Source: Blautia hydrogenotrophica DSM 10507
GTDB taxonomy: Bacteria; Bacillota; Clostridia; Lachnospirales; Lachnospiraceae
Reading direction: 5' to 3'
Length of the DNA: 64,000 nucleotides
NCBI RefSeq assembly: GCF_034356035.1
Contig: NZ_CP136423.1
Span: forward strand, 3,224,001-3,288,000
How positions within the stretch are numbered: position 1 is the first letter of the stretch; the number at the start of each line of letters is the position of its first letter. The notes under the pieces were generated by a model, which saw only the letters and a list, made by a program, of their open reading frames with translations, had not been told where the DNA came from and did not search any database. This document shows positions 275 to 51,755 of the stretch, in pieces. A program made the position numbers and the translations under genes.

Positions 275-325
275 CCTTATTGCTCCTCTTCCCTATGTTC
301 TGTCTACAGTTCCCCAGTATAAAAC

Positions 326-516
326 AAAGTGGGCAAGCCCACTTCACCTCCCCCATCCCCTCAATCTTTGAGGGGCGCGTTCCACTTTGCGCGCCGCCGC
401 AACACCGCTTCGCGGTGAAATTCCTTATTGCGGCGTGTGCATCCTTAGCGGAGCGTTTTTGTAATAGGAAGGAGCTTTCACGCATTAGCGTGACAAGGTC
501 TTTCCTATTACATAAG
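326..516 (-). repeat. Terminator-docked structured repeat, copy A
   Basis: Full-length copy of the family also found at 4337, 11557, 21517, 26367 and 47596. Read on the minus strand it starts with a hairpin (GTAATAGGAAAG pairing with CTTTCCTATTAC, inner TCACGC/GCGTGA). It continues with GCCGCAA/TTGCGGC enclosing CACCGC/GCGGTG, then GGCGCG/CGCGCC, then CCCCTCAA/TTGAGGGG, and ends in AAGTGGGC/GCCCACTT followed by TTTGTTTTA. The first hairpin lies just past the terminator of the 77-residue gene. No credible coding capacity. Confidence 0.85.
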
Positions 517-522
517 AATAAA

Positions 523-560
523 CTGCAAACAATTATGGCCAGAGCTTTTCGCCCTGGCCA
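523..560 (-). terminator. Intrinsic terminator of the 77-residue gene
   Basis: On the minus strand TGGCCAG and CTGGCCA form the stem of a 25-nt hairpin (536-560), followed by an interrupted T-tract (AATTGTTTG). It lies 18 bp past the stop of the small gene and directly before repeat copy A. Confidence 0.75.
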
Positions 561-4293: not shown

Positions 4294-4336
4294 TCATACC
4301 ATCCTTAAAAAAGAATGCTGACACAGCCAACAGAAC

Positions 4337-4524
4337 AAAGTGAACAAGCCCGCTTCAACTCCCTCATCCCCTCAATCTTAAGGGGCGCACTTCCACTTTC
4401 CGCGCCGCCGCAACACCGCTGTGCAGTGAACCACCTTATTGCGGCGTACACATCCACGGCGGAACGTTTATGTAATGGGAAAGGGCTTTCACTCATTAGC
4501 TTGACTAGGTCTTTCCTATTACAT
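4337..4524 (-). repeat. Terminator-docked structured repeat, copy B
   Basis: Full-length copy of the same family as 326-516, with the same order of hairpins and scattered substitutions. The proximal hairpin (GTAATAGG...CCCATTAC) begins directly at the T-tract of the deacetylase terminator. The distal hairpin (AAGCGGGC...GTTCACTT) is partly decayed. Spurious reading frames on both strands come from the repeat. Confidence 0.85.
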
Positions 4525-4600
4525 AAAAACCGATGGCTGTTTTGAACTGCTCCGCAGGAGTCCCTGTCCATCCTTCCGTTCAAAATAGTCATCGGTTTTT
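4525..4600 (-). terminator. Intrinsic terminator of the polysaccharide deacetylase gene
   Basis: Long stem on the minus strand: AAAACCGATGACT at the 5' side pairs with AGCCATCGGTTTT at the 3' side, and TTTTGAAC pairs with GTTCAAAA inside, followed by TTTTT. Repeat copy B begins at once after the T-run. Confidence 0.85.
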
Positions 4601-4618
4601 AGATCTCAAGTTATAAAA

Positions 4619-5854
4619 TTACTGTTCGCTTTCACTGTCAAAGGACTCCTGCCCCTCTGAGCCATCCCCGGAAAATTCCCCAGAGGTATCATCAAAAGAG
4701 TCCTCCGATAAATCATCTGTATCCCCGGAATTACTGTCCGTCTGCTCACTCTCCTGCTCAGCCTCAGCCTCTAAGCTTTCTACCGTCTTATCCCAAAAAT
4801 CTGAGTAAGATTTTCCGACCTGCAAGTCAATGCCTTTAGCCTCTGCCAGCTCGCTGACTGTCACCAGCTTATACCCTTGCTTGATAAGCTCCGGTATAAT
4901 GCGGATCGCCGCTTCCACAGACGGCTCATGAATGTCATGCATCAACACAATCTCACCGTCTGATACATGTCCAATCACCGAATCGTACTCCGCATCCGCA
5001 TTCATCTTTGCCCAGTCCTCTGTGTCCAGAGACCACATAAAACAAGGAAGTCCAGTGGCTGTACAGATGGTCTCATCCTGAGCACCATAGGGAGTTCTTC
5101 CCACAGTGGCCGGAGAGCCTGTAGATTCTTCCAAAAGATTGTTGGTCTTCTCGAACTGATCTGTGACCTGGTCCAAGGACAGCGACGTAAGCTGAGGATG
5201 ACTGTAGGAATGGTTGCCCAGTTCACAGCCCAATTCTTTCATTCTCTTCGGAATGTCCGGATACTGCTCAACACACTGTCCCAGCATGAAGAAAGTGGCC
5301 TTAGCATTGTTCTCTTCCAGACAATCCAACAACTTGTCCGTATATTTGCCGGGACCATCATCAAATGTCAGAGCAATCATAGGACGGCGCGCTTCAGGAT
5401 CTAAAATTCCATTGTCGTTAAACTTATAGTCCTCCCCGTCTACTGTCACCCATCCTGTCTGCATATATCCGTTTTCATTAAAATAGTATGTACAGCCGTC
5501 GATCTCCTTCATTCCATTGGCGTAGTAAGTTCCGTCGGCGTTTTGATACCATTTTCCAGTTTCATCTTCCTGCCAACCGACAGTATGTACCCCAGCCTTT
5601 CCTCCGTCGTTTTGACTTCGAATCGGCTGTCTGACTGCTTCTCCTGGTCCTGACTCCTGAGTCTGAGCCTGCACCTCCACAGTCTTGCTACTGCCTCCGC
5701 CGATCTTTGTGACCAGTGGTGTGATAATTCCTTTCACCAAAAAGACTAGCACCAAAATCACAGCAACCGCACAGGCTCCCAGACGTATTATCTTGCGGAT
5801 GAAAAGCTGCCTCTTTTTTCGCCTCATCCGTTCCCGCAAAATTCGTTTATCCAT
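4619..5854 (-). CDS. Membrane-anchored polysaccharide deacetylase with cell-wall-binding repeats
   Basis: A 411-residue surface enzyme that probably removes N-acetyl groups from peptidoglycan or another glycan. The basic N-terminus and one membrane segment (about 24-46) anchor it with the enzyme outside. Two choline-binding-like repeats (about 93-145, G-K-W-Y-Q-N and G-W-V-T-V-D-G) follow. The NodB domain has T-F-D-D-G-P (163-168), H-S-Y-S-H-P (215-220), R-T-P-Y-G, D-T-E-D-W and L-M-H-D-I-H. A Ser/Glu/Asp-rich tail of about 45 residues ends the protein. It is probably monocistronic with its own terminator. Confidence 0.92.
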   Translation of the reverse strand: MDKRILRERMRRKKRQLFIRKIIRLGACAVAVILVLVFLVKGIITPLVTKIGGGSSKTVEVQAQTQESGPGEAVRQPIRSQNDGGKAGVHTVGWQEDETGKWYQNADGTYYANGMKEIDGCTYYFNENGYMQTGWVTVDGEDYKFNDNGILDPEARRPMIALTFDDGPGKYTDKLLDCLEENNAKATFFMLGQCVEQYPDIPKRMKELGCELGNHSYSHPQLTSLSLDQVTDQFEKTNNLLEESTGSPATVGRTPYGAQDETICTATGLPCFMWSLDTEDWAKMNADAEYDSVIGHVSDGEIVLMHDIHEPSVEAAIRIIPELIKQGYKLVTVSELAEAKGIDLQVGKSYSDFWDKTVESLEAEAEQESEQTDSNSGDTDDLSEDSFDDTSGEFSGDGSEGQESFDSESEQ

Positions 5855-5932
5855 GCTGTTTATCCATCCTCTATTTCATTCTTCCGTACTACCAAAATCA
5901 TCATTATTTATCCTACTGGGAACTACCAAACT

Positions 5933-7036
5933 CTAAATCACACGGCATAGCTTTAGGTCTTCATCTACCAAAAGCACATCCGCTTCTTTTCCCGGTGTCA
6001 GTGATCCTACCCTGTCATAGATTCCTATACTCTTCGCCGGATTCCTGGTCGCTGCCCAAATAGCATGCTCTCTTGGAACGCCAAAAGATACCGCACATCT
6101 CATACAGTCATAGAGATCTGTCGCAGACCCCGCCAAAGTGCCATCCTCCAATGTGGCCTTCCGGTCTTTCATCGTCACATTTAAATCTCCCAGCTTGTAG
6201 CTTCCATTCGGCATCCCTGTGGCCATCATGGAATCACTGACCAGGATTACCCGATCCGGCCCAAACAGTGCAAAAGTCGCACGTACCACACTAGGATGAA
6301 TGTGGAATCCATCGCTGATTAGCTCTACCATAGATTCTCTATCATCAAAGGCTGCTCCTATCAGACCTGGGTCTCTATGGGCCAAAGGCTGCATCGCATT
6401 GTACAGATGGGTCACATGATGAGCTCCTCTTTCTATCGCCTCCGCGGCTGTATCATAACCCATAGATGTGTGTCCTAGAGAAATGCAGACCTCATTGTGC
6501 ATCTCGTCAATAAATTTCATGCCACCTTCCATATTGGGAGCTAAAGTCATCAGCTTAATCCTATTACCGCAGGCTTCATTGCACTCTTTGAAAAAATCTG
6601 CACTCGGTTTGTGAATAAAACTCTCCTCATGAGCACCTTTTTTCTTAGGATCAATAAATGGTCCTTCCATATTGATTCCCAAGATTGTTGCCCCTTCTTT
6701 ATAGTCTTCGACCTCTAAAATTGTCGCAAAAATCTTTTTCAGACGCTCTTTTGGTAAAGTTACTGACGTGGGGCAATAAGAAGTAATTCCATGTTCTTTC
6801 TCGTACTTTAAAATCTTTTTCAACCCTTGGGCATCACCATCCGAAAAATCATGGCCTGCCGCGCCGTGACTGTGAATATCAATCAATCCGGGAATTACCA
6901 ACAGACCAGACGCATCCACTTCCATATCATCTGACACTTCTTCCCGCGAAGCTACAATCTTATGATTCTCGATATAGAGGTCCTGCTTCTTAAACAAGCC
7001 ATCCTCCTGGAACACAGCGCCATTTTTTATAATCAT
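5933..7036 (-). CDS. nagA: N-acetylglucosamine-6-phosphate deacetylase
   Basis: Converts GlcNAc-6-phosphate to GlcN-6-phosphate and acetate in amino-sugar recycling. The 367-residue length is typical. Amidohydrolase motifs: I-D-I-H-S-H-G near 55, E-G-P-F-I-D-P with the metal-binding Glu, G-H-T-S near 190, H-L-Y-N-A-M-Q-P near 210, and L-V-S-D-S-M with the catalytic Asp near 265. GGAGGAAATGAT precedes the ATG and there is a good promoter at 7082. nagB is not adjacent. The deacetylase gene downstream follows after 78 bp without an obvious terminator, so a link in wall amino-sugar metabolism is possible. Confidence 0.95.
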   Translation of the reverse strand: MIIKNGAVFQEDGLFKKQDLYIENHKIVASREEVSDDMEVDASGLLVIPGLIDIHSHGAAGHDFSDGDAQGLKKILKYEKEHGITSYCPTSVTLPKERLKKIFATILEVEDYKEGATILGINMEGPFIDPKKKGAHEESFIHKPSADFFKECNEACGNRIKLMTLAPNMEGGMKFIDEMHNEVCISLGHTSMGYDTAAEAIERGAHHVTHLYNAMQPLAHRDPGLIGAAFDDRESMVELISDGFHIHPSVVRATFALFGPDRVILVSDSMMATGMPNGSYKLGDLNVTMKDRKATLEDGTLAGSATDLYDCMRCAVSFGVPREHAIWAATRNPAKSIGIYDRVGSLTPGKEADVLLVDEDLKLCRVI

Positions 7037-7081
7037 ATCATTTCCTCCAATTCACAAAATTCCCGTTATCCTCTATCGAAT

Positions 7082-7110
7082 ATTATATATTCTTTCCCCT
7101 GCAAATGCAA
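7082..7110 (-). promoter_or_regulatory. Promoter of nagA
   Basis: Minus strand TTGCAT (7105-7110), 17-bp spacer, TATAAT (7082-7087), about 45 bp before the nagA start. Confidence 0.8.
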
Positions 7111-7139
7111 TGTATTCCAGTCATTCCCTCATAATTTTC

Positions 7140-7282
7140 GTAACAGTTCAGCCTTTCGGCTTCATTGTCACAAATGCATGCACACAGACTGCGATTCTCT
7201 CCGTCTGGCGCCTGCAATCCTCGGGATCCCGCTGCAAATGCAGCGTGACGCCTCGCGGGACAATGTCAGGCTGAACTGTTAC
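7140..7282. repeat. Palindromic element with 15-bp perfect terminal inverted repeats
   Basis: GTAACAGTTCAGCCT at 7140-7154 and its exact complement at 7268-7282. A second nested pair, CATTGTC (7163) and GACAATG (7259), lies inside. The interior has small hairpins such as GCTGCAAATGCAGC and CAGAC...GTCTG. No coding capacity. It could be a MITE-like element or the DNA of a multibranched RNA. No second copy was seen in the window. Confidence 0.65.
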
Positions 7283-7302
7283 TAATTTTCATATCAGTTC
7301 AA

Positions 7303-7455
7303 CCATAGGTCTGTTTGAGAGAGAAAATCATGCTTGCATGATTTTTCGATCAGACAGACCTATGAGAAGAACATCCGTTTATGAGTAAAACAGTGGCGTC
7401 AGCCACAACAAGCACGCAGTGCGGTTTTACAAATGGCGCGGGCTAACGGATACTA
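7303..7455 (-). repeat. Structured repeat family 2, copy a
   Basis: Read on the minus strand this matches 42261-42420 over about 150 bp, with the shared core GTAAAACC-x-x-ACTGCGTGCTT and then GGCTGACGC. Both have a stem (GTAAAAC/GTTTTAC here), two small inner hairpins, and a second long hairpin (CATAGGTCTGT/ACAGACCTATG around AAATCATGC/GCATGATTT). The 428-bp gap 7037-7464 holds the nagA promoter, the 7140 palindrome and this element, and no gene. Confidence 0.75.
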
Positions 7456-7464
7456 ATAATTATG

Positions 7465-7932
7465 CTACATAGGCTTGCACACGTCCACCCATGCCTTAGA
7501 ATTAGAATACTTTTCCAGCTCTTCACAAGTCAGCCCAATAGCGCTGTTTCCGCTTCCACAAGCCGGGTACACCGTCTCAAACCTTTTCATAGACTCATCC
7601 AGATATACCTGCACTTCTTTCGGAACCGCAAATGGACAGACGCCTCCGATCGCATGTCCCACTCTCTCCAAAACTTCATCCGGTGTCAGCATCTTAGCCT
7701 TCAATCCAAAGTAATGTTTATATTTGGCATTGTCAATTTTTCTATCGCCGGCAGTCACTACAAGAATCGTCTCTTCTCCCTTCTTAAACGACAGGGTTTT
7801 CGCAATTCTTGCAGGTTCCACTCCCACAGCCAAGGCCGCCAGCTCCACCGTGGCACTTGACTGCTCCATCTCTAAAATTCTATCTTCCATACCGTACTGT
7901 TTAAAATACTCTCTCACTTTTTCAATTGCCAT
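7465..7932 (-). CDS. YbaK/EbsC-type aminoacyl-tRNA deacylase
   Basis: A 155-residue single-domain protein of the YbaK/ProX editing superfamily, which hydrolyses mischarged tRNA such as Cys-tRNA(Pro) or Ala-tRNA(Pro). Visible family features: S-S-A-T-V-E near 25, the I-A-K-T-L-S-F-K segment with the conserved Lys near 45, and the glycine motif G-H-A-I-G-G-V-C-P-F near 92-101. AGAAGGAGAAGGAAA precedes the ATG. It appears to stand alone between lrgB and structured elements. Family assignment is firm; the editing substrate is not determined. Confidence 0.88.
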   Translation of the reverse strand: MAIEKVREYFKQYGMEDRILEMEQSSATVELAALAVGVEPARIAKTLSFKKGEETILVVTAGDRKIDNAKYKHYFGLKAKMLTPDEVLERVGHAIGGVCPFAVPKEVQVYLDESMKRFETVYPACGSGNSAIGLTCEELEKYSNSKAWVDVCKPM

Positions 7933-8001
7933 TTTCCTTCTCCTTCTGCTTTTTCATTATATATTCTCAGAATTTCTTTGTTCCTACATTCGTCTCTGCG
8001 C

Positions 8002-10153: not shown

Positions 10154-11509
10154 TTAGCTGTATTTTTTGCAGATACTCACTACGACACCTCCAAGTGCCC
10201 ACAAAGCAATAGCATTTGGTATCACCATCAGACCATTGAAGAAATCAGACAGAGACCACACAAAATCCACTTTCAACATCGAACCGATGACCACAAAAGC
10301 GATGACCAAAACGGAATACAGCTTTCCAGCCTTATCTCCAAACAAGTATTTCATATTCACCAGCCCGAAAAAATGCCATCCCAGAATTGTAGAAAAGGCA
10401 AAAAATAACAGACAGACAGCGACGAAAATATCTCCAAAGCCCCCAAAGGTTCTGGAAAAAGCCGCCTGTGTCAAGGCAGTCCCGGTCTTATGTGTCTCCA
10501 TCGCTCCCGTGGTCAGGATAGAAAACACCGTCAAGTTTAAGATCACAAAAGTGTCGATGAACACACTGACCATGGCCGCCAGTCCCTGCTTATGAGGATT
10601 TTCCACTTTTGCTCTCGCGTGAGCGTGAGGTGTAGAACCCATACCTGCCTCATTGGAAAACAGTCCTCTGGCCACACCATAGCGAATCGCCTCCCGCACG
10701 GCGATACCGGCACCGGCCCCCATAACTGCCTCCGGCTTAAACGCTCCCACAAAAATCATCTTTATAGCTCCCGGAAGTTCTGTTATGTTAAGCAGAATCA
10801 GCAACAGACTTCCCAGGATATAGACAGCCGCCATAAATGGCACTAATTTCTCTACGACAGAGGCCAACCGCTGAGTGCCCCCTAAAAAGATAAATGCAGC
10901 AATAGACGCCAGGATAATTCCAAAAATCAGCGGGGAAACCTGAACTCCTCTCGCCTCAAATACTTCCGTGAACGCTGCCCCTATGGAATTGGCCTGAACC
11001 ATATTCCCGGTAAATCCCAGAGCAACCACAATAAAAATCGCAAACAGCCCCGCCAAAATCTTTCCAAATTTTCCCATAAAAGCCGCACGAATGTAGTAGA
11101 CCGGTCCCCCGGTGATCTCTCCGTCCACAGTTTTCTTATACTTTTGAGCCATAGTAGCCTCGGCGTAGATCGTGGACATCCCAAAAAATGCGCTGACCCA
11201 CATCCAAAAAATGGCCCCCGGACCTCCGCCTATCAGCGCAGTAGCCGCTCCCGTGAGATTTCCAGTTCCCACCTGCGCTGCGATAGCGGTAGCCACAGAC
11301 TGAAAAGCCGTCATCTCTCCTTTTTTTCCACCCTCGTTCTTTTTTCCCATACTTCCGAAGACCAATTTAAAGCCTTCTTTCAGCTTCCGAACTTGAATAA
11401 ACTTCAGACGGATTGTAAACATAATCCCTGTTCCACAAAGCAGAATGATCAAAATCACATTCCACAAAAAATCACTCGCCTGAGTCACCATACTTGTCAA
11501 TGCTTCCAT
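10154..11509 (-). CDS. Sodium:alanine/glycine symporter (AGCS family)
   Basis: A 451-residue inner-membrane carrier importing alanine or glycine with Na+. AGCS features: A-A-Q-V-G-T-G-N-L-T-G near 77-87, G-G-P-G-A-I-F-W-M-W near 94-103, and F-S-N-E-A-G-M-G-S near 285. About eleven membrane segments are visible. CAGGAGG precedes the ATG. The leader carries a glycine riboswitch (11831-11914) and a terminator (11723-11749), which points to glycine as a physiological substrate and to transcriptional control by it. Repeat copy D lies inside this leader. Confidence 0.93.
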   Translation of the reverse strand: MEALTSMVTQASDFLWNVILIILLCGTGIMFTIRLKFIQVRKLKEGFKLVFGSMGKKNEGGKKGEMTAFQSVATAIAAQVGTGNLTGAATALIGGGPGAIFWMWVSAFFGMSTIYAEATMAQKYKKTVDGEITGGPVYYIRAAFMGKFGKILAGLFAIFIVVALGFTGNMVQANSIGAAFTEVFEARGVQVSPLIFGIILASIAAFIFLGGTQRLASVVEKLVPFMAAVYILGSLLLILLNITELPGAIKMIFVGAFKPEAVMGAGAGIAVREAIRYGVARGLFSNEAGMGSTPHAHARAKVENPHKQGLAAMVSVFIDTFVILNLTVFSILTTGAMETHKTGTALTQAAFSRTFGGFGDIFVAVCLLFFAFSTILGWHFFGLVNMKYLFGDKAGKLYSVLVIAFVVIGSMLKVDFVWSLSDFFNGLMVIPNAIALWALGGVVVSICKKYS

Positions 11510-11556: not shown

Positions 11557-11723
11557 AAAGTGGGGAAGCCCACTTCAACTCCCTCACCCCTCAATCTTTG
11601 AGGAGCGCGTCCCACTTTGCGCGCCGCCGCAACACCGCCTCGCGGTAAAATTCCTCATTGCGGTGTGTGCATCTTGCCCGGAGGGCTTTCTATTGCATAG
11701 GGAGCGAAGTTTCCTATGCAATA
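11557..11723 (-). repeat. Terminator-docked structured repeat, copy D (subfamily II), inside the symporter leader
   Basis: Same internal hairpins as copy A, but the proximal hairpin is TTGCATAGG/CCTATGCAA, as in copy E. It starts where the T-tract of the riboswitch terminator ends and stops about 48 bp before the symporter start codon. Any transcript that escapes the riboswitch terminator must pass through it. The distal hairpin here is AAGTGGG/CCCACTT followed by TTATGG. Confidence 0.85.
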
Positions 11724-11749
11724 AAAAAAGCTGATGTAAAATCATCAGC
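11723..11749 (-). terminator. Riboswitch-controlled terminator
   Basis: Minus strand GCTGATG-ATTTTA-CATCAGC (11730-11749) followed by seven T. It lies 82 bp downstream of the glycine aptamer and upstream of the symporter gene, as expected for the expression platform. Confidence 0.85.
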
Positions 11750-11830
11750 CTCTGAGAAAGTGAACATATCGCATATTTTCGGATTTCTTCTGTGTCACAC
11801 ACATATATCCCGAATCCTCTTTTTACATAT

Positions 11831-11914
11831 GCTCTGTCCTTTTGCCTGAGAGATTGGCAGCTCGTTCTCTGCCGTACACCTTCGGCGTCCTGAATTCAGG
11901 AACTCTCCAGAGTA
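11831..11914 (-). ncRNA. Glycine riboswitch (single aptamer)
   Basis: The minus strand shows the conserved glycine-aptamer pieces in order: CTGGAGAG, then GCCGAAGG, then CTCTCAGGCAAAAGGACAGAG. Only one aptamer is visible, as in singlet glycine riboswitches that control Na+/alanine-glycine symporters. The next gene on this strand is such a symporter. The direction of the response (ON or OFF) cannot be read from sequence alone. Confidence 0.93.
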
Positions 11915-11915
11915 A

Positions 11916-11960
11916 TCTAAAGAACTTTCACACATTTGCGTGACAAGGTCTTTTTCATAA
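11916..11960 (-). repeat. Solo proximal hairpin of the terminator-docked repeat (copy H)
   Basis: Minus strand GTTATGAAAAAGACCTTGTCACGC, interrupted here as GTTATGAAAAAG then ACCTTGTCACGC, then AAATGTGTGAAAG, matches only the first hairpin of copies A, B and G. It sits between the terminator of the Lrp gene and the glycine riboswitch. The rest of the element is missing. Confidence 0.65.
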
Positions 11961-12001
11961 CATAAAATAACATACCTGCCGCCATTTGGCAACAGGTATG
12001 T
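11961..12001 (-). terminator. Intrinsic terminator of the Lrp-family gene
   Basis: ACATACCTG and CAGGTATGT flank an inner GCC/GGC pair (11970-12001), followed on the minus strand by TATTTTATG. It lies about 60 bp past the stop codon, immediately before the solo repeat hairpin. Confidence 0.75.
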
Positions 12002-12555: not shown

Positions 12556-12630
12556 CCCGCGGAGCATTTATGTTATAGGAGAAAACTTTTACACATCCAT
12601 GCGACAAGGTTCTGTCTACAACATAATAAA
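12556..12630 (-). repeat. Partial terminator-docked repeat (copy I) in the Lrp leader
   Basis: Minus strand TTATGTTGTAG, then CCTTGTCGCATGG, then TCCTATAACATAAATGCTCCGC matches the proximal hairpin and following bases of copies A and G. No clear intrinsic terminator precedes it. It lies downstream of the Lrp promoter, so it is part of the Lrp 5' leader: an exception to the docking rule. Confidence 0.6.
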
Positions 12631-18965: not shown

Positions 18966-19013
18966 TGCACGGTAAAATCTCTCACTGCGGCATATCTTTT
19001 CGCCTGTACCGGC
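18966..19013 (-). repeat. Degenerate copy of the terminator-docked repeat (copy J)
   Basis: Minus strand ATGCCGCAGTGAGAGATTTT followed by ACCGTGCAAC matches the GCCGCAATAAGGAATTT-CACCGC portion of the family with substitutions. It begins directly after the seven-T run of the terminator at 19014-19065, the same position relative to a terminator as the full copies. Confidence 0.5.
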
Positions 19014-21516: not shown

Positions 21517-21694
21517 GTAAGACTTTTTCAGACCCTCATCCCTCCAGTCTTGAGAGGCACATCCACTTCTCGTGTCGCTGCAAGATCGCTGTGTGATAAA
21601 ATTCCTCATTGCAGCGTGTGCATCCACAGCGGAGCACTTATTTTATAGGGATAAAGTTTTATGAATTACCGTGACAAAGTCTTTCCTGTAAAAT
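21517..21694 (-). repeat. Terminator-docked structured repeat, copy F (diverged)
   Basis: A clearly related but diverged copy that keeps the stems. GCTGCAA/TTGCAGC replaces GCCGCAA/TTGCGGC, a paired change, and CCTCTCAA...GGAGGG replaces CCCCTCAA/TTGAGGGG. It abuts the terminator of the 2-hydroxyacid dehydrogenase gene. The gap 21373-21747 holds this copy, the terminator and AT-rich sequence, and no gene. Confidence 0.75.
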
Positions 21695-21733
21695 AAAAAA
21701 CAGCCTGGCTAATTTACAGCCTGACTGTTTTTT
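21695..21733 (-). terminator. Intrinsic terminator of the polyol/ketose operon
   Basis: Minus strand AAAAAACAGTCAGGCT paired with AGCCAGGCTGTTTTTT around a short loop, 15 bp past the stop at 21748. Repeat copy F starts right after the T-run. Confidence 0.9.
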
Positions 21734-26234: not shown

Positions 26235-26366
26235 CTTTACCACTCCTTTACATAGATTTAAATAAAAATTATTTACACTTCTTTTATACCATTTTTGAAG
26301 TTTATTTTCAATAGTTTTCAATATTTTTTGTAGATTTTTTTCAAATTCTTTCCTAATCACAGAACT

Positions 26367-26527
26367 AAGTGGGCAAGCCCACTTCAACTCCTTCCTCAAT
26401 CTTTGAGGGGCGCGCCCCACTTTGCGCGCCGCCGCAACACCGCCTCGCGGTGAAATTCCACATTGCGGTGTGTGCATCCTGCCCGGAGGGCTTTTTATTG
26501 CATAGGGAACGAAGTTTCCTAGGCAAT
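26367..26527 (-). repeat. Terminator-docked structured repeat, copy E (subfamily II)
   Basis: Clean copy with the TTGCCTAGG/CCCTATGCAA proximal hairpin, then CACCGC/GCGGTG, GGCGCG/CGCGCC and the AAGTGGGC/GCCCACTT distal hairpin. It lies between the cstA terminator and the polyol operon start. Much of the CCCCTCAA stem is shortened by 3-4 bp at one side. The gap 26235-26599 holds no gene. Confidence 0.85.
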
Positions 26528-26567
26528 AAAAAATCGCCCTGCCATCCAATTCAGATGACAGAGCGAT
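26528..26567 (-). terminator. Intrinsic terminator of cstA
   Basis: Minus strand ATCGCTCTGTCATC pairs with GGATGGCAGGGCGAT, followed by TTTTT, about 33 bp past the cstA stop. Repeat copy E follows the T-run directly. Confidence 0.9.
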
Positions 26568-34679: not shown

Positions 34680-34718
34680 ACAGGGGGCAGTCCGCCGGGC
34701 TGTTCCCCTGTTCGTTTT
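34680..34718 (+). terminator. Intrinsic terminator inside the PTE-ABC operon
   Basis: ACAGGGG...CCCCTGT stem with inner CAG/CTG (34680-34711) followed by TTCGTTTT. It lies 21 bp past the binding-protein stop, so it probably reduces expression of the ATPase and permease. Confidence 0.8.
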
Positions 34719-34745
34719 GTAATAGGAAAGACTTTGTTCTATACA
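34719..34745 (+). repeat. Remnant of the terminator-docked repeat on the plus strand (copy K)
   Basis: GTAATAGGAAAGACTTTG directly after the T-tract matches the first bases of the family (GTAATAGGAAAGACCTTG). The remainder is lost. Here both the gene and the repeat are on the plus strand, so orientation follows the terminator. Confidence 0.6.
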
Positions 34746-47547: not shown

Positions 47548-47592
47548 AAAGGAATCTTTCACGCATTAGCGTGACAAGGTCTTTTCTGTTAG
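47548..47592 (-). repeat. Solo proximal hairpin of the terminator-docked repeat (copy G2)
   Basis: Minus strand TAACAGAAAAGACCTTGTCACGC, given here as TAACAGAAAAG then ACCTTGTCACGC, then TAATGCGTGAAAG. It begins right after the distal hairpin and TTTGTTC of copy G, so it is a second, truncated unit in tandem with G. Confidence 0.7.
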
Positions 47593-47595
47593 AAC

Positions 47596-47784
47596 AAAGT
47601 GGGCAAGCCCACTTCAGCTCCCCCATCCCCTCCATCTTTGCGGCGCACAGTCCCACTTTGCGCGCCGCCGCAACACCGCCTTGCGGTGTACTACCTTATT
47701 GCGGCGTGCGCATCTTTAGCGGAGCGTTTATGTAATAGGAAAGGGCTTTCACGCATTAGTGTGACAAGGTCTTTCCTGTTACAT
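47596..47784 (-). repeat. Terminator-docked structured repeat, copy G
   Basis: Full-length copy of about 189 bp, nearly identical to copy A over most of its length, with all stems intact except CCCCTCAA, which here reads CCCCTCCATCTTTGCGGCG. It abuts the T-tract of the Crp/Fnr gene terminator. The gap 47442-47839 holds the hpd promoter, copies G2 and G, and this terminator, and no gene. Confidence 0.85.
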
Positions 47785-47812
47785 AAAAAATACCCCTGAA
47801 AAACAGAGGTAT
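47785..47812 (-). terminator. Intrinsic terminator of the Crp/Fnr-family gene
   Basis: Minus strand ATACCTCTG-TTTTT-CAGGGGTAT (47790-47812) followed by TTTTTT, 28 bp past the stop. Repeat copy G begins at the T-run. Confidence 0.9.
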
Positions 47813-47839
47813 TCGGAGTTATTTCCTGCTATTGAATTT

Positions 47840-50603: not shown

Positions 50604-50700
50604 GGCAGGTGCGCTTCATAATAGCTGCACCTGCCCCTATAGAAATCGTTCCGCTTCGCGGTAAAATTCCCCAGTACGGCATACGCACCCGCAGCAGACG
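50604..50700. repeat. Hairpin plus degenerate repeat remnant (copy L)
   Basis: GGCAGGTGC/GCACCTGCC (50604-50635) is a perfect 9-bp hairpin behind the DUF2798 gene without a clear T-tract. From about 50650, CCGCTTCGCGGTAAAATTCC then CAGTACGGCATACGCA matches the middle of the terminator-docked family with several changes. Its orientation is that of the minus-strand copies, downstream of galM. Confidence 0.5.
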
Positions 50701-50732
50701 TCTTCGTTATCGAAAAAATTCCTCACACCTCA

Positions 50733-51755
50733 TCATGACAAATCGTTCCCTATAACATGAAAACGATAGCTGGTCATCTCTCGATAGGTGTCCCCAGCCC
50801 GCAGAATCACAGTTGGGTTTTCTTCCTTATGGATGCTGTCTGGCATATTCTGTGTCTCCACACAGATAGCAGTCCTCTGATCAATGATATCCCCACCCTT
50901 GCCCTTGTGAGGTTCCAGGAAATTTGCCGTGTAGATCTGAGCCTGCGGCAAAGTAGTCTCCACGATCATTTCTATTCCGCTTTCTTCACAGTAAAGCTTC
51001 ACTTTTTCTTTCTCATCCCTGAAAATGAAGGGATGGTCAAAACCATGTCCGATTTTAAGCTGTTCATCTTCCATCTGTAGATGCTCTCCGAGCTTGCCAC
51101 CATTTCTAAAATCAAAGGGAGTCCCCGCCACATCACGAATCTCTCCTGTCACAAGTCCGTTTTCATCTACACAGGCAAAGCAGTCCGCCGCCGTCTGCAG
51201 CCAATGTTCCCCAATCCCGCAGGGTCTTCCGCTGAGATTAAAATAAGAGTGGTTGGTAAAATTCAAAATAGTATCCTGATCTGTATGAGCTTCATACTGT
51301 AAAATGAATTTATCTGCTTCCAGACGGTAAGTAACCGTCACGTTCAGCTCACCAGGATACCCTTCCTCGCCGTCAGGGCTCGTATAGGTAAAGACAATTT
51401 CATCTTCTCCTGTCGTATAGCTGAATACCTTGTTTGAAAACCCCTCGATGCCGCCGTGAATCGCGTTAGGTCCAGAATTTTTCGCAAGCTGGTAGGTTTT
51501 TCCATTCAGTTCAAAGCTGGCGCCTCCAATCCGATTCGCCACTCGTCCCACAAAAGCCCCCAAATACCCTGTATGTTCCTGGTACTCTTGAATCGTGTCA
51601 TATCCCAGTACCATGTCCCGAAACCGCCCATCTTTATCCGCTGTCAGAATCTTCATGACGGTGCAGCCAAGATTTGTGACGGTCACAGAAAGACTATCAT
51701 TTTTCAGTTCCAGAATATCTATACGATTCTCTGATCTTTTTACTAGATTTACCAC
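50733..51755 (-). CDS. galM: Aldose 1-epimerase (mutarotase)
   Basis: Interconverts alpha and beta forms of aldoses. 340 residues of beta-sandwich type. Substrate Arg in G-R-V-A-N-R near 70; His in N-A-I-H-G-G near 97; catalytic His in N-H-S-Y-F-N-L near 167; H-G-F-D-H-P-F near 232; catalytic Glu near 305 in T-A-I-C-V-E-T. It lies 3 bp behind araD, so it is the last gene of the arabinose operon and probably acts on arabinose delivered as the furanose or wrong anomer. Confidence 0.94.
   Translation of the reverse strand: MVNLVKRSENRIDILELKNDSLSVTVTNLGCTVMKILTADKDGRFRDMVLGYDTIQEYQEHTGYLGAFVGRVANRIGGASFELNGKTYQLAKNSGPNAIHGGIEGFSNKVFSYTTGEDEIVFTYTSPDGEEGYPGELNVTVTYRLEADKFILQYEAHTDQDTILNFTNHSYFNLSGRPCGIGEHWLQTAADCFACVDENGLVTGEIRDVAGTPFDFRNGGKLGEHLQMEDEQLKIGHGFDHPFIFRDEKEKVKLYCEESGIEMIVETTLPQAQIYTANFLEPHKGKGGDIIDQRTAICVETQNMPDSIHKEENPTVILRAGDTYREMTSYRFHVIGNDLS

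Follow-up and report, generated by a model that had tools for sequence, protein, structure and literature searches.

REP sequences, the extragenic palindromes linked to RAYT transposases, occur in high copy number and often lie behind genes. Other small repeats likewise carry no gene. Parts of two reports (PMC6542083, PMC3446304) describe the bcr elements of the Bacillus cereus group (bcr1–bcr18) as non-coding interspersed repeats of 100–400 bp; bcr1 is present in a mean of 39 copies per strain and up to 130, its mobility has been tied to a T-rich TTTAT motif, and bcr1–3 have been likened to MITEs and are often transcribed. BOX, RUP and SPRITE of pneumococcus, a Firmicute, are structured repeats of small size and modular build, and SPRITE is terminator-like (sections of PMC3049150). 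Group IIC introns insert right after rho-independent terminators and into the lagging-strand template (sections of PMC8919778).

Here we describe an element of ~130–195 bp that carries no gene, is rich in hairpins and lies directly behind intrinsic terminators. No description of it was found in the open-licence PMC literature searched, and the family is apparently unnamed.

Copies in the window

The window is the whole 64-kb stretch of DNA analysed, C1:3224001–3288000 of the 3.6-Mb genome of Blautia hydrogenotrophica DSM 10507. A repeat search within it returned six copies in register, with low ends at 323, 4334, 11553, 21504, 26358 and 47594, and partial copies at 11919, 12580 and 50651. The six copies listed in the preliminary description are thus real, but the coordinates given there mark their far ends and not their terminator ends: all six lie on the minus strand, which puts their terminator side at the higher coordinate. 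The features of the window are as follows.

323–517, minus strand: near-full copy, subtype A, with its terminator-side end at 517
537–559, minus strand: hairpin upstream of the 323–517 copy, with a poor T-tract; failed the automatic terminator test
4334–4529, minus strand: near-full copy, subtype A
4527–4598, minus strand: long intrinsic terminator hairpin under the 4334 copy, by eye; exceeds the length allowed by the automatic test
11557–11729, minus strand: near-full copy, subtype B, flanked by a glycine riboswitch and a sodium:alanine symporter gene
11730–11749, minus strand: terminator hairpin preceding the 11557 copy
11919–11967, minus strand: fragment, H1 alone, behind a terminator placed by eye
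12556–12627, minus strand: fragment with H1 and some of the linker, followed by a T-run tail; internal deletion by eye
18967–18996, minus strand: weak H2-like fragment a short distance behind a terminator, by eye
21527–21698, minus strand: copy without its 3' end, profile positions 2–176 of 196
21695–21733, minus strand: terminator in front of the 21.5-kb copy
26363–26533, minus strand: near-full copy, subtype B, the copy of the original finding
26534–26566, minus strand: terminator in front of the 26363 copy
34715–34739, plus strand: internally deleted copy, one member of an inverted pair in the repeat search, behind the terminator of a plus-strand gene, by eye
47552–47591, minus strand: H1 of another copy, a truncated one, immediately behind that at 47593
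47593–47789, minus strand: near-full copy, subtype A
47789–47813, minus strand: terminator in front of the 47593 copy
50651–50762, minus strand: degenerate 3'-truncated copy, profile positions 2–114

Anatomy of the element

Read from the terminator side, the parts are the host T-tract, H1, a linker, H2, an optional H3, H4 and a T-rich tail. H1 is a long palindrome or hairpin whose outermost T/A pairs include the terminator's own T-tract, and it is followed by a conserved linker, AAACGCTCCGC-NNN-GGATGCG (consensus AAACGCTCCGCTAAGGATGCG). H2 is a long hairpin with a one-sided bulge of ~10 nt and a capping hairpin; H3 (CCCCTCAA/TTGAGGGG) was not seen in the copies read from genomes G009 and G031; and H4 (AAGTGGGCTTGCCCACTT) leads into the tail TTTGTTC, which in some genera is a T-run instead. 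Subtypes A and B differ chiefly in H1 and the linker, and a further subtype, complete in locus L414, has a terminal hairpin with a real T-run.

The core helices covary. In a covariance model of the core built on 27 sequences, both sides had changed in 10 of the 18 pairs, a value reached in none of 500 shuffles. The two ends differ by eye, an H1 palindrome at one and the H4 tail at the other, and terminal inverted repeats are absent. There was also no excess of target duplication, the mean longest match being 1.41 in 17 copies (1.80 when permuted) and 2.19 in 52 copies (2.12 when permuted). Separately, two cores (L246 at 536 and L307 at 1072; MAG RGIG731) start exactly at the A-run AAAAAACGC, with H1 absent and no T-tract before them, and at L444 1348 a lone H1 hairpin of the group 2 kind defined below stands without a core ~60 nt before a full copy.

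Docking on terminators

All six copies had been said to begin directly past the T-tract of an intrinsic terminator. By eye this holds for five of them, each on a strong minus-strand intrinsic terminator; it fails for the copy at 323–518, whose hairpin lies ~20 nt away and has a poor T-tract. The remnants reported near 11916, 18966 and 34719 do lie behind terminators by eye, the one at 18967–18996 being weak and a short distance away. The orientation claimed to be constant relative to the terminator was likewise borne out, since the plus-strand remnant at 34715–34739 sits behind the terminator of a plus-strand gene; orientation therefore follows the terminator. An automatic test covered five of the six window copies, the 3'-truncated 21.5-kb copy lying outside the test set: three passed, the 323 copy failed, and the 4334 copy failed despite a long, clear hairpin.

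A covariance model and terminator statistics, proposed in the preliminary description as the check on docking, were run with a positive outcome. In a strict test for a hairpin plus T-tract, 50 of 62 near-full copies in the B. hydrogenotrophica genome passed at their start, compared with 1–5 of 62 at ten shifts of 100–600 nt. For 10 of the 62, the hairpin upstream belonged to the copy before, as its H4; among the other 52, 40 passed, and some of the 12 failures were seen by eye to involve a hairpin that was long or weak, or an H4 missed by the pattern.

In other Lachnospiraceae, copies of group 1 (H1 mostly TAGGAAA/TTTCCTA) passed in 77 of 101 cases versus 0–8 of 101 at six shifts, and those of a sister subfamily, group 2 (H1 of the CTCAGTCGG kind on the same core), in 16 of 78 versus 2–7 of 78 when shifted; these counts leave aside 22 cores with no recognisable H1, and with the start offset by a few bases they become 56/103 and 18/76, respectively. 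The sole constraint seen in group 2 is a TTT right before the element, with T at a frequency of 0.91 at −1, 0.98 at −2 and 0.82 at −3 (n = 56, AACTCAGTC form with the core), and many group 2 copies lie at or overlap a stop codon by eye. Since group 2 needs only TTT, docking does not come with the core itself, and the rule is limited to the family of the window and group 1. At the 5' junction of group 1 TTTAT is frequent, yet not fixed.

Copy number, spread and orientation

With one window copy as the query, at least 75 matches were obtained in the B. hydrogenotrophica genome, 49 with a length of 122 nt or more and 78–100% identity; the others were short or self-palindromic, and with 40 of 224 candidates scored the figure is a lower bound. 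A subtype-B query yielded additional copies, and a profile search of 197 kb of this genome, in stretches picked for having matched the element, gave 75 hits, of which 62 were near-full. Head-to-tail tandem units measure ~191 bp here and 134 bp in genome G464.

By DNA similarity, two of 60 relatives matched (G009 and G031), while the core covariance model matched 64 of 397 genomes of the family Lachnospiraceae (E ≤1e-5, strict filters). The core pattern occurred in at least 120 stretches of a collection of named genomes; the 80 matches listed came mostly from Lachnospiraceae or its genera (Lachnospira, Butyrivibrio, Eubacterium oxidoreducens, E. cellulosolvens, Coprococcus comes, Blautia, [Clostridium] aminophilum), and a few, for example in Achromobacter and Pelotomaculum, look like chance. 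Nine genomes from which loci were drawn held 120, 80, 60, 44, 21, 21, 21, 3 and 0 model matches (E ≤0.001), the 120 being those of the 2.4-Mb genome G464. Across 222 kb of G464 there were 34 full copies, with a mean identity of 97.5% (80–100) to one typed copy, which argues for recent, extensive copying and mobility. Two exact core patterns gave no match in viral_contigs, three distant queries none in plasmids and a single query none in phages. An element-like copy behind a terminator was also seen at L245 1731–1767, in a MAG labelled Anaerolineaceae; it may reflect a transfer or an error of binning.

The preliminary description had left a choice between a new non-autonomous mobile element and a terminator-linked RNA. 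Mobility is strongly supported by the near-identical dispersed copies in several genomes, the head-to-tail arrays and the patchy presence in 2 of 60 relatives. This is an apparently undescribed repeat family in a major family of gut bacteria, dense enough in some genomes for copies to fall at contig ends.

The element is oriented on the lagging-strand template. Of the 62 near-full copies in B. hydrogenotrophica, 60 are co-oriented with replication (24 of 26 on the left arm and all 36 on the right), the GC skew of the stretches that hold them being +0.21 on the left arm and −0.20 on the right. Among window ORFs of at least 150 aa, 39 of 49 are co-oriented with replication, so the strand bias of the copies exceeds that of genes (P ~1e-4, for copies that are not fully independent and a background taken from a single 64-kb window).

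Regulatory context

A glycine riboswitch aptamer lies at 11824–11920 on the minus strand and the sodium:alanine symporter gene at 10154–11509; the 11557 copy docks on the terminator between them and thus lies in a regulated leader. Copies directly behind T-box leaders were found at four loci, L010 and L022 in B. hydrogenotrophica (two of 40 loci of this genome scanned), and L191 and L498. The element therefore places a folded sequence between regulated terminators, of the glycine riboswitch and T-box kinds, and their genes.

Search for an enzyme and linked genes

Neither an intron domain V nor a transposase had been visible at the outset, and this stood: Rfam scans placed no group II family on the element, and no transposase, reverse transcriptase or TnpB was found linked to it. 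The B. hydrogenotrophica genome gave no RVT_1 match, which makes a resident group II intron unlikely; of 21 other element-carrying genomes, some of them incomplete, 14 contain RVT_1 and seven do not. A Y1 (TnpA) domain was found in 15 of 20 element-carrying genomes and was absent from five, several of the genomes being incomplete; B. hydrogenotrophica has one 89-aa TnpA fragment, among phage-like genes. The best listed TnpA loci of 20 genomes contained no strong core, the two matches being weak (E 0.22 and 0.39), and the best listed TnpB loci of nine genomes, including the single TnpB locus of B. hydrogenotrophica, contained none.

Four genomes carry genes that we take, by motif and length, to be RAYT-like. 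Those of G070 (L428) and G351 (L430) are flanked by their own, different palindromes with GGGGACGG motifs, and no palindromes were seen at the other two loci. A weak core-like fragment (E 0.14) lies ~360 nt from the gene in G070; because its contig is rich in the element and holds a strong copy as well, this fragment is read as chance.

No neighbour gene common to the copies emerged from 82 loci with flanks of 1–1.5 kb, in clusters inspected in part; the ORF clusters fell mostly at the element itself. Cores without a nearby 5' arm made up 17 of 134 scanned, several of them chance pattern hits, and in L302 alone was the arm found 3.5 kb away. There (4389–7985 of the locus, CAMOYN010000003.1) the element is split, the 5' arm of H1 standing 3.5 kb before the 3' arm, core and H4. 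The interior holds two compact genes, by eye an ApbE-like gene and one for a secreted repeat protein; a ribosome-binding site comes right after the 5' half, and the 3' half is immediately preceded by a stop codon. These are either cargo or the filling between two decayed copies. L308 has a similar 5' half, with no 3' half among the core matches listed for its contig.

Proposed mechanism of movement

The explanation that we favour, with moderate confidence, is a mobile non-autonomous element that inserts at terminators through a single-strand mechanism supplied in trans. That this is a mobile, non-autonomous family targeting terminators is highly probable; the single-strand mechanism taken by itself is put forward tentatively. 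Insertion occurs directly 3' of a hairpin and T-tract, without target duplication, and H4 with its tail forms a new hairpin and T-tract, so that each insertion creates a fresh target; tandem copies are explained in this way. A single strand folded into hairpins may enter the lagging-strand template where a T-run of the target lies exposed, and this T-run would pair with the A-run that H1 has at its 3' foot; the enzyme acting in trans would most likely be an HUH-like single-strand nuclease. Docking, arrays, strand bias, covariation, lack of target duplication, near-identical copies, breadth and co-changing H1 arms support this explanation. Counted against it are the failure to find an enzyme, the absence of Y1 from 5 of 20 genomes, the docking of group 2 in only 16 of 78 cases and a guide geometry that differs from that of IS200/IS605. 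Three features are surprising: docking on terminators that renews itself, an occurrence spread across the Lachnospiraceae and the lack of a recognisable enzyme.

The co-change of the H1 arms was observed in G464, where the outer arms of near-identical copies agree at 341 of 384 comparisons (permuted mean 317.6, maximum 333, 5000 permutations), although inheritance of stem variants may leave fewer independent events than copies. Of 32 copies, 22 have A/A at the position beside the T-run (ATG with CAT), four have G/G there (GTG with CAC) and six are mismatched. One arm of H1 has probably been rewritten from the other.

The main alternative, although doubtful, is RNA-templated copying, in which an opposite-strand RNA ending in the A-run would be primed by the terminator T-tract and reverse-transcribed in trans, by target priming or in the manner of group IIC introns. 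In favour of this route, the 3' foot of H1 carries an A-run that matches the T-run of the target, and group IIC introns share the targeting and strand bias (parts of PMC8919778). Fragments in B. hydrogenotrophica mostly keep the terminator side, ~10 lacking the 3' end and two the 5' end, a count that excludes two hits reinterpreted as a different subtype or as internally deleted; at least five copies in G464, however, lack the 5' part. A strictly one-sided truncation, which would point to reverse transcription, is weakened by these copies and by the other subtype in L414. Two chimeras would fit template switching: C1:3503974 joins an H1 of B type to an A-like body, and C1:1603883 is a B copy fused to an A-type H1. 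Mismatches in H1 are more often A-C than G-T (20 versus 5 in B. hydrogenotrophica and 46 versus 15 in others, partly inherited), as if the opposite strand had folded, but those in H4 lean the opposite way (21 G-T versus 7 A-C). The route is further disfavoured by the missing RVT_1 in B. hydrogenotrophica and in seven of the 21 other carriers, some of these incomplete.

A site-specific recombinase, or another enzyme that recognises folded ends as suggested for the bcr elements, is unlikely to be responsible; it would accord with the lack of target duplication and with the short fixed TTT target of group 2, yet no observation demands a double-strand crossover. More speculative, and improbable, is a new SINE-like class in bacteria, in which the internal A-run of the folded strand would pair with a terminator T-tract and be copied from there into the chromosome, no known transposon family supplying a dedicated enzyme; each insertion would make a fresh target, the H1 arms would be rewritten together, and the element might even carry cargo, as perhaps in L302. 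That the element is instead a regulatory RNA, retained by the host for a function behind terminators, would suit the covarying helices and the copies behind riboswitch and T-box leaders; this is very improbable given how patchily it occurs (in 2 of 60 relatives and 64 of 397 genomes of the family), the tandem and degenerate copies, the lack of a common neighbour gene in the partly inspected clusters from 82 loci and the up to 120 hits in one genome.

Comparison with known systems

The mobile terminator-targeting element favoured here was compared with known families of RNAs and of repeats. Rfam scans found no family that covers it. One hit reached the gathering level, Clostridiales-1 (RF01699, 52.1 bits) over the last 37 nt of the L014 copy, where H4 of the element is aligned to the first hairpin of that RNA; sub-threshold microRNA models match H1, as with any long hairpin. 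Two copies in B. hydrogenotrophica, L014 1413–1537 and one around 976 in L411, are joined to the same 3' sequence, which in L014 is part of the RF01699 match.

The element resembles group IIC introns in inserting directly 3' of an intrinsic terminator (50/62) and in its lagging-strand bias (60/62). Unlike them it is shorter than 200 nt, has no group II match in Rfam and resides in a genome with no reverse transcriptase match; a group II intron is rejected on the last two grounds. According in part to PMC6006769, IS200/IS605 elements and their gene-less derivatives, the PATEs, also have subterminal hairpins, no target duplication, a lagging-strand preference and a short, fixed, one-sided target. 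Hairpins near both ends and the absence of target duplication are shared by our element, and its proposed single-strand movement follows the same logic. The tetranucleotide guide of IS200/IS605 lies, according to the same source, 5' of the hairpin, whereas the pairing A-run here is on the 3' foot of H1, and no tnpA/tnpB parent with the same ends was found among the loci examined.

A MITE of a DDE transposon is rejected for want of terminal inverted repeats and a target-site duplication, and a REP/RAYT origin because none of the four RAYT-like loci is flanked by the palindrome of the element, the E 0.14 fragment in G070 being the only match. The element thus lacks hallmarks tested for group II introns, MITEs and REP/RAYT and, with no IS200/IS605 parent found, is filed in none of these classes.

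Among the small structured repeats, BOX has terminal repeats resembling an insertion sequence and boxA/B/C modules, in the description given in parts of PMC3049150, and the element has neither; unlike BOX, RUP and SPRITE as portrayed there, it docks behind existing terminators. It is likewise set apart from the bcr elements, which are said to be confined to the B. cereus group, with no docking on terminators reported in the portions of PMC6542083 and PMC3446304 used. How gene-less repeats such as bcr and BOX move is a long-open question, which near-identical copies in cultured species (Lachnospira multipara, Eubacterium oxidoreducens) would make testable. On the best reading, the nearest known kind is that of the small gene-less repeats of the bcr and BOX type, and the interpretation of the present element as mobile is supported here.
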